In this document: positions 36,733 through 52,388 of the stretch, piece after piece
How positions within the stretch are numbered: position 1 is the first letter of the stretch
How the letters are laid out: every line of letters starts with the position of its first letter
Origin: Candidatus Rokuibacteriota bacterium
GTDB taxonomy: Bacteria > Methylomirabilota > Methylomirabilia > Rokubacteriales > CSP1-6
Length of the DNA stretch: 64,000 nucleotides
Assembly (NCBI GenBank): GCA_030647435.1
Contig: JAUSJX010000155.1
Span: forward strand, 1-64,000
Reading direction: 5' to 3'
Made by a program: the position numbers and the translations under genes
Notes under the pieces: model-generated
Databases searched by the model: none
What the model was told of the DNA's origin: nothing
What the model saw: the letters and a program-made list of their open reading frames with translations, nothing else

Positions 36733-36737
36733 GCGAG

Positions 36738-36839
36738 ATCGGGGTCAGGTCTTGCAATCCGACATGAGGGCCCCGCAGCTGCTCGTTCGCCGCGGCTGGG
36801 TCTGGCGGGCAATGTGTGATTGCAAGACCTGACCCCGAT
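36738..36839. repeat. Inverted-repeat element with perfect 22-bp arms (REPIN-like)
   Basis: Arms 36738-36759 and 36818-36839 are perfectly complementary over 22 bp; the core is GGGGTCAGGTCTTGCAATC. The 58-bp centre is GC-rich. The GGGGTCAGGTCTTG motif is well known from repeats associated with REP-associated tyrosine transposases. No such transposase is in the window. It lies between the convergent pruA and GNAT genes and could serve as a terminator for both. Confidence 0.85.
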
Positions 36840-36874
36840 TTCGCGGGGGAAGACCCTCGAACCGGATAGCTCGC

Positions 36875-51105: not shown

Positions 51106-51951
51106 ATGCCCGGCGGCGTAGACCTCCACACCCACACGACCGCGTCCGACGGCACCTACACGCCGTCCGAGCTCGTGGCGGAAGCGTCCAGGCGCGGCGT
51201 GCGCGTTCTCGCCGTCACCGACCACGACTCGACCGAGGGGCTGGCCGAGGCCATGGAGGCCGCCGCGCGGAGCCGTCCGCTCGAAATCCTCCCGGGCATC
51301 GAGATTAACTGCGACGTCGAGGGCGCCGAGATCCACGTCCTGGGCTACCTCATGGACTGGCAGGCGCCGTGGTTCCAGGAGTTCTGCCGCGAGCAGCGGC
51401 GGGAGCGGCGCGAGCGCGTCCACCGGATGGTCGAGCGGCTGGCCGCCCTCGGCATGCCGCTCGAGGCCGACGAGGTGTTCGCGATCGTCAAGGAGGGCTC
51501 GGCGGGGCGCCCGCACGTGGCGCAGGTCATGGTCGCGCGCGGCTACGTCAAGACGGTGCGCGAGGCCTTCGACAAGTACCTGGGCTCGGGCAAGCCCGGG
51601 CACGTCCAGAGGAAGAAGCTCACGCCGGAGGACGCCGTGCGGCTGATCCGGAAAGCGGGCGGCGTGCCGGTCTTCGCGCACCCGGGGCTCGCCGACCGCG
51701 ACGAGCTCATCCCGGGGCTCATCGCCGCCGGCCTCATGGGTATCGAGTGCTACTACGCCGAGCACTCGGCCGCCCAGCGCGCGGCGTATCTGCAGATCTG
51801 CAAGGACCACGACCTGGTCGCCACGGGCGGCTCGGATTTCCACGGCCCCAAGGTGCGCGCCGCCAGCCTGGGCTCGCCCGCCGTGCCGATGTCCGCGGTC
51901 GAAGCCCTCCGCACCAAGGCCGCCGCCTCGCGCGCCTCGCTCGTATCCTGA
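51106..51951 (+). CDS. PHP domain metal-dependent phosphoesterase
   Basis: The product is 281 residues starting immediately after the pepA stop. Metal ligands are seen in VDLHTHTTASDGTY, AVTDHDSTEG, EILPGIEINCD, the VFAHPGL segment and GGSDFHGP, the full PHP set. The family includes 3',5'-nucleoside bisphosphate phosphatase (YciV/RnaM type), which also has the inserted helical domain visible here at about residues 95-180. Last gene of the eight-gene gcv operon. Confidence 0.92.
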   Translation: MPGGVDLHTHTTASDGTYTPSELVAEASRRGVRVLAVTDHDSTEGLAEAMEAAARSRPLEILPGIEINCDVEGAEIHVLGYLMDWQAPWFQEFCREQRRERRERVHRMVERLAALGMPLEADEVFAIVKEGSAGRPHVAQVMVARGYVKTVREAFDKYLGSGKPGHVQRKKLTPEDAVRLIRKAGGVPVFAHPGLADRDELIPGLIAAGLMGIECYYAEHSAAQRAAYLQICKDHDLVATGGSDFHGPKVRAASLGSPAVPMSAVEALRTKAAASRASLVS

Positions 51952-51977
51952 ACCACGAAGTGCTGGCAATCTGCCGA

Positions 51978-52118
51978 GCGGGGCTGGGGGGTACCCTCCC
52001 GGGACCACGCTGACCCGCAGCGCGTTGTGTTCTCTCGGTTGGGGCCACGAGAAATCGGTCTCCTGCTTCGGCGGCGCGCAGAAGATACGGGTCCCGGGAG
52101 GGTACCCCCCAGCCCCGC
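51978..52118 (+). repeat. Small element 1 with perfect 29-bp inverted arms
   Basis: Arms 51978-52006 and 52090-52118 are exactly complementary over 29 bp (core GGGGTACCCTCCCGGGACC type sequence). The 83-bp centre (52007-52089) begins ACGCTGACCCGC and ends GCGCAGAAGATACG. The centre reappears, diverged and inverted, in element 2. No open frame with coding character. It begins 26 bases after the PHP gene. Confidence 0.85.
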
Positions 52119-52197
52119 CCTCCCCGCTACGTCGACGACCTGCTATCTCACTCGCCCGGGATTGCCCGGGTTGTGTCCTGCGATTCTCCTCACGCGA

Positions 52198-52345
52198 GCC
52201 GGCCGGGGGCGGGGGCAGCCTCCGTGGACCCGTATCTTCTGCGCGTGGTCGAAGCCAGACACCTCCGTCCCGTGGCGCCATAGAGAGGGCGCAAAGGGCC
52301 GCGGGTCAGCGTGGTCCGCGGAGGCTGCCCCCGCCCCCGGCCGGC
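52198..52345 (-). repeat. Small element 2 with 33-bp inverted arms, opposite orientation
   Basis: Arms 52198-52230 and 52313-52345 pair over 33 bp with one mismatch (T52225 against G52318, a G-U pair if transcribed from the plus strand). The 82-bp centre, read on the minus strand, begins ACGCTGACCCGC and ends GCGCAGAAGATACG, as in element 1, with a variable middle. The arm sequence is different from element 1 except for the innermost GGACC/GGTCC. Bases 52119-52197 between the elements hold nothing recognisable; 52346-52388 is the tail of the thioesterase gene region. Confidence 0.85.
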
Positions 52346-52388
52346 GTATTGTCGGCACACTTCCGGCTCGGGACATCAGGCGCGGTGA

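Follow-up and report, generated by a model that had tools for sequence, protein, structure and literature searches.

What keeps two long arms complementary when the arms themselves vary from copy to copy? The question is raised by two small elements that lie in opposite orientation in a 64,000-nucleotide stretch of Candidatus Rokuibacteriota DNA (the window, by which we mean the whole stretch analysed). The original prediction described cores of 83 and 82 bp between long arms, and both are present as described. An inverted-repeat search finds the arms of element 1 complementary at 29 of 29 positions (100%) and those of element 2 at 32 of 33 (97%), and the two take second and fourth place when the inverted repeats of the 64-kb window are listed by length. 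The one mismatch in the arms of element 2 is C.A in core orientation and G.U on the opposite strand, in agreement with the G-U pair that had been expected in plus-strand RNA. The two cores are 77% identical, and in folding against shuffled sequences both elements fall far below the shuffles (z -8.4 and -8.2). The pair very probably consists of two tail-to-tail, non-autonomous IS630 (Tc1/mariner-type) MITEs of ~219 bp; the further steps, which concern the hairpin and core function, are ones that we infer.

The element boundaries originally proposed were too narrow. Outward of the arms, a second, outer inverted repeat starts at CTAG, and because these outer repeats were seen the arm-only boundaries were replaced by the wider units of Table 1. 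Such a MITE would be built of a terminal repeat of ~30 bp, an arm of ~30 bp, a core of ~83 bp, a second arm and a second terminal repeat, and the 219-bp unit length comes from comparisons of filled and empty sites of related copies. The left terminal repeat of element 1 is a decayed copy of CTAGTGTCCTG..., its core carries the motif blocks ACGCTGAC.CGC, GCCACGA and CAGAAGATACG, and in the junction segment CGTCGACGACCTGCT corresponds to an inner right end that is conserved in other copies (GTCAACGACCTGCTGAG). The right ends of the two elements meet, and their left ends face two convergent genes. The terminal repeats of the pair have decayed to CTCGTATCCTG and CTGATGTCCCG, with CTCG and CTGA in place of CTAG. 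An upstream PHP-domain-like open reading frame apparently takes its last codons and its TGA stop (51949-51951) from element 1's decayed left terminal repeat.

Table 1. Features of the two elements in the window (positions count from the first nucleotide of the window).
Feature	Position	Strand	Basis or remark
Element 1, whole MITE unit, ~219 bp	51940..52158	+	left end at fixed 57-nt core offset
Element 1, left terminal repeat (CTCGTATCCTGAACCACGAAGTG...)	51940..51973	+	13/18 consensus match at expected offset
Element 1, left arm	51978..52006	+	29/29 complementary to 52090-52118
Element 1, core, 83 nt	52007..52089	+	model R1 match 51997-52099, 109.8 bits
Element 1, right arm	52090..52118	+	arm pairing
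Element 1, decayed right end and junction to element 2	52119..52161	.	alignment to other copies
Element 2, whole MITE unit, ~218 bp, inverted	52162..52379	-	inner boundary approximate
Element 2, right arm (own strand)	52198..52230	-	arm pairing
Element 2, core, 82 nt	52231..52312	-	model R1 match 52221-52322, 101.2 bits
Element 2, left arm	52313..52345	-	arm pairing
Element 2, left terminal repeat (CTGATGTCCCGAGCCGGAAGTGTGCCGACAATAC)	52346..52379	-	15/18 consensus match at offset 57

The outer ends link the elements to a known family of insertion sequences. They match IS630-family terminal inverted repeats (CTAGTGTCCTGTCTC...) within the same genome, and an end-pattern search of the window's own genome found the repeat on either side of a 1.16-kb insertion sequence that encodes an IS630-family transposase (NCBIfam NF033545, E 1.9e-73; flanks CTAGTGTCCTGTCTCGGAAG... 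and CTAGTGTCCTGTCCCAGAGATTCGATAACAAA). In a 219-bp copy in genome G093 (contig C256) the outer repeat is almost perfect, with CTAGTGTCCTGTCTCAGA... on both sides; this copy starts with CTAGTGTCCTGTCTCAGAGATCCGAAGACAAAG, ends in the same repeat and has CTAG at both ends. CTAG also stands at both ends of the insertion sequence, which is itself without the core, and related IS630 copies in G009, G004, G071, G022 and G006 have the same kind of end, with a C before each end found. An apparently intact IS630-family insertion sequence at a gene-end CTAG (L219 1421-2584, G000:C83) is probably the element that partners the MITEs. Copies of three genera have the terminal repeat at a fixed offset from the core (57/59 nt), and the repeat scores at least 14 at 27 of the examined ends versus at most 0.35% of control segments. 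Element ends in genus g2 (G005) differ in sequence from those of other genera.

Mobility is indicated by orthologous sites. Three empty sites in G013 have TAG/CTAG at the point where G094 has an insertion of 219 bp (L137, L142, L131); the alignment of a G013 empty site to the filled G093 site L157 is less clean, and the first empty-site query, made with one locus, found no ortholog. The shared IS630 ends, the TAG/CTAG sites and the empty sites together identify the elements as IS630-type MITEs, and on sequence comparison both identity and mobility are well supported, so the mobile-element option of the original prediction was the right one. No transposase gene lies inside the 219-bp unit, and core lengths of 82, 83, 84 and 86 vary by single bases, which leaves no conserved reading frame. 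An IS630 transposase acting in trans would insert the element at TA, preferably within CTAG. IS630 transposase was found in G000, G004 and G006; a close IS630 was looked for and not found in G093, G094, G013, G088 and G005, several of which are copy-rich. For the window pair, both of whose outer repeats are decayed, position, offset and relatives point to MITE membership.

The core family has a narrow distribution, within a group of uncultured bacteria of soil and groundwater. The core search gave roughly twelve copies in the genome of the window itself and 22 in one of the same genus. The search of related genomes with a covariance model, which the original prediction had proposed, gave ~120 matches in 12 of 57 genomes of one Rokubacteria family (up to 23 per genome) and no copies in 38 other genomes of the phylum; the named relatives are Candidatus Rokubacteria/Rokuibacteriota genomes. 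Half-matches in G025 and G026, which belong to other families of the order, and in G001 were set aside as apparently due to chance, some of them lying within coding sequence. Viral contigs searched with one pattern gave no match, and a search of the literature on Rokubacteria repeats found nothing relevant. Rfam has no family match in the window at the gathering score, and at relaxed thresholds only generic long-hairpin models appear, below threshold. In G005, loci L178-L194 form a diverged subfamily of ~15 copies with the same core motif and outer repeats of a different kind, likewise close to TAG. Some other copies are degenerate and truncated (L177, L179, L199). At L221 1625-1720 (G094:C28), a short core-less derivative retains terminal repeats and arm remnants, with CTAG at its left end, and in a truncated copy at L220 1578-1680 (G000:C141) fused fragments of A-type and B-type arms come after the left terminal repeat.

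Inverted pairs like that of the window are common among the copies, at similar spacing. An assembly chimera, one of the refuting cases originally named, is unlikely for the window pair because pairs of the same layout occur at independent loci in both G000 and G004. Pairs in G000, G004, G006 and G094 are nearly all tail to tail and none is clearly head to head. Copies at some contig ends (L132, the start of G000 C28, the end of G000 C66, and G094 C30) resemble assembly fold-backs or fold-back joins, in which the flanking sequence returns in inverted form past the element; it seems that long hairpins cause breaks in these assemblies.

Copies have a characteristic position relative to genes. They sit on TAG/CTAG at gene ends, mostly 5-60 nt past a stop codon as judged with a home-made gene caller. 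In the window, CTAG occurs 25 times versus 185 expected, and 13 of the 25 are at gene ends. IS630 prefers TA within CTAG (Tenzen & Ohtsubo 1991, as cited in PMC2170065 and PMC6811581). With CTAG scarce in these GC-rich genomes and about half of its occurrences at gene ends, where it holds the TAG stop, this targeting accounts for elements that lie just after stop codons, and the IS630 preference thus provides a simple explanation for repeats in that position. Between genes of the same direction, orientation is about even (24 versus 22), so the elements do not simply belong to the message of the upstream gene.

Comparison of arms across copies, also proposed originally, shows that they are variable and that they pair in almost every copy. 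Calling the arms of the two elements unrelated was an overstatement: across copies both share a G-rich then C-rich plan and fall into two related types. Among 106 distinct sequences, 95% of stem cells are paired versus 82% after shuffling, and 229 stem cells are doubly changed versus 66 in shuffles. This covariation is seen among copies from several genera, and compensatory stem changes are visible directly in orthologous copies of related genomes. Pairing extends into the conserved block at an R-Y pair (columns 13/97 of A2) beside a bulged A, which is GC in 31 and AU in 7 of the first 38 copies with no mispair. Inside the core, the conserved unpaired blocks are ACGCTGA, GCCACGA and CAGAAG.YACG. 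Covariation supports the stem only; the helices inside the core, which show too little variation or are broken in some copies, are putative.

Conservation is concentrated at the centre. Full-length alignments show 96-99% identity at the core ends, from where identity falls outward to near background in the terminal repeats. Copies were collected with the core model, which favours intact cores and could bias conservation, so seven orthologous pairs were compared, which reduces this bias and does not remove it. In these pairs, changed positions make up 5/252 (2%) of the motif blocks, 68/464 (15%) of the rest of the core and 78/426 (18%) of the outer ends (Fisher p 4e-9 and 8e-12). The low rate of change in orthologous insertions indicates that the motif blocks are under selection after insertion. 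Selection on a hairpin, as originally suggested, thus gains support for the core-adjacent stem and the core motif from covariation, compensatory changes in orthologs and motif constraint. In two orthologous pairs the core is inverted between its arms relative to its flanks, from which it follows that arms recombine, a process that would also homogenise them and so bears indirectly on the original suggestion of ends replaced by copying one arm to the other.

The strand on which the hairpin matters can be approached through imperfect pairs. Isolated arm mismatches in core orientation are A.C in 38 distinct events versus G.U in 9 (p 2.5e-5), and the A.C excess holds in all classes of gene orientation. 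Since A.C read from the other strand is G.U, it appears to be on the strand opposite to core orientation that the hairpin matters; it is the mismatches that point to this as the putative folded strand. Gene-strand mutation bias is unsupported as the cause, given the excess in all orientation classes and, in the two best-sampled genera, no G-to-A bias inside the core to match it. Folding energy was rejected as a strand test since shuffled controls differ much alike and composition explains most of the difference. We suggest that the arms would stay complementary through selection on an opposite-strand hairpin, most likely of RNA, helped by arm recombination.

Two explanations would derive the elements from something other than IS630. 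A family of structured RNAs or 3'-end terminators that stands on its own, with no relation to transposons, would suit the location shortly after stop codons, the very stable stems and the lack of an Rfam relative, but it is at odds with the IS630 terminal repeats and CTAG target and is contradicted by the empty sites. No T-run of an intrinsic terminator follows either window stem, and orientation is not fixed; the terminator or attenuator that had been considered for the pair is accordingly unsupported, and the broader explanation is very improbable. Even harder to credit is mobilisation of a REP/BIME system by a RAYT (Y1) transposase. The pairs that lie inverted where two convergent genes have their 3' ends do resemble BIMEs (PMC3733652), and a PF01797 gene occurs in 5 of 9 multi-copy genomes versus 6 of 48 others. 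This origin was nevertheless rejected because no core element adjoins any of the eight Y1 genes examined, several of which are flanked instead by unrelated GGGGTCAGGTCTTGCA-type sequence, and because IS630 ends account for the units. The window also holds, at 36733-36844, an inverted repeat (GGGGTCAGGTCTTGCAATCC...) of the type that flanks RAYT-like Y1 transposase genes in several Rokubacteria genomes; it represents a separate REP-like family.

The remaining alternatives concern the core. Ordinary dead MITEs, in which the core is mere interior and its conservation reflects recent spread and the search method, would leave just such degenerate, truncated and core-less derivatives (L177, L179, L199, L221, L220), and inversion is known for the Correia element (PMC10969869). 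Against this stand the 2% of changes in the motif versus 15-18% in neighbouring parts of vertically inherited orthologs and a stem that covaries between copies of several genera, and we regard it as rather unlikely, if a serious competitor. Somewhat less probable still is a core to which a protein binds as DNA, in the way that gyrase or IHF binds BIMEs, and which acts as DNA or cruciform and not as RNA. Nearly random orientation between tandem genes fits a DNA site or cruciform, as do cores that invert. A double-stranded site, however, needs neither complementarity that enters the conserved block (columns 13/97 of A2) nor strand-asymmetric mismatches. Stem, strand asymmetry and constraint together fit an RNA hairpin recognised by a host factor, and the core motif would most likely act as such a structured RNA. 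The most far-reaching reading, to which we give somewhat less than even chances, is a core that is a new family of structured RNA, distributed among Rokubacterial genomes by IS630-type MITEs and afterwards retained by the host, in which the opposite strand would fold, the stem would be free to change if it pairs and the hairpin could flip between its arms.

Bacterial MITEs are usually treated as decaying leftovers. Ends that decay around an inner core nearly unchanged in vertically inherited copies offer a case for testing whether a transposon can deliver an RNA of use to its host. A close likeness is to RUP of pneumococcus, an IS630-Spn1-associated MITE (PMC2229807) that is likewise small, non-coding and intergenic, has IS630-matching terminal repeats, inserts at TA and has a transcript that folds into a long stem-loop. 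RUP differs in its length (107 bp) and phylum, and PMC2229807 does not describe for it a conserved core enclosed by a covarying stem. In Neisseria, Correia/NEMIS elements (PMC2229807, PMC10969869) are also TA-flanked MITEs with a long RNA hairpin and known inversion, but there RNase III cuts at the terminal repeats, whereas here the terminal repeats decay and the inner core and stem are conserved. ERIC/IRU are TA-flanked hairpin repeats found at gene 3' ends in Yersinia, for which PMC2229807 and PMC10969869 report neither an IS630 partner nor a layout of variable arms and constant core. REP/BIMEs also form inverted pairs on the downstream side of genes, frequently where two genes converge (PMC3733652), but they are palindromes of 20-40 bp tagged with GTAG/CGTC, and the GTAG type has a RAYT transposase; neither was found here. 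The IS630 family itself (PMC2170065) has the terminal repeats and TA/CTAG target in common with these elements, which are without a transposase gene, as the insertion sequences are without the core. What distinguishes the Rokubacteria elements is a conserved centre with its pairing stem between decayed outer ends, as if the host had kept them for use.
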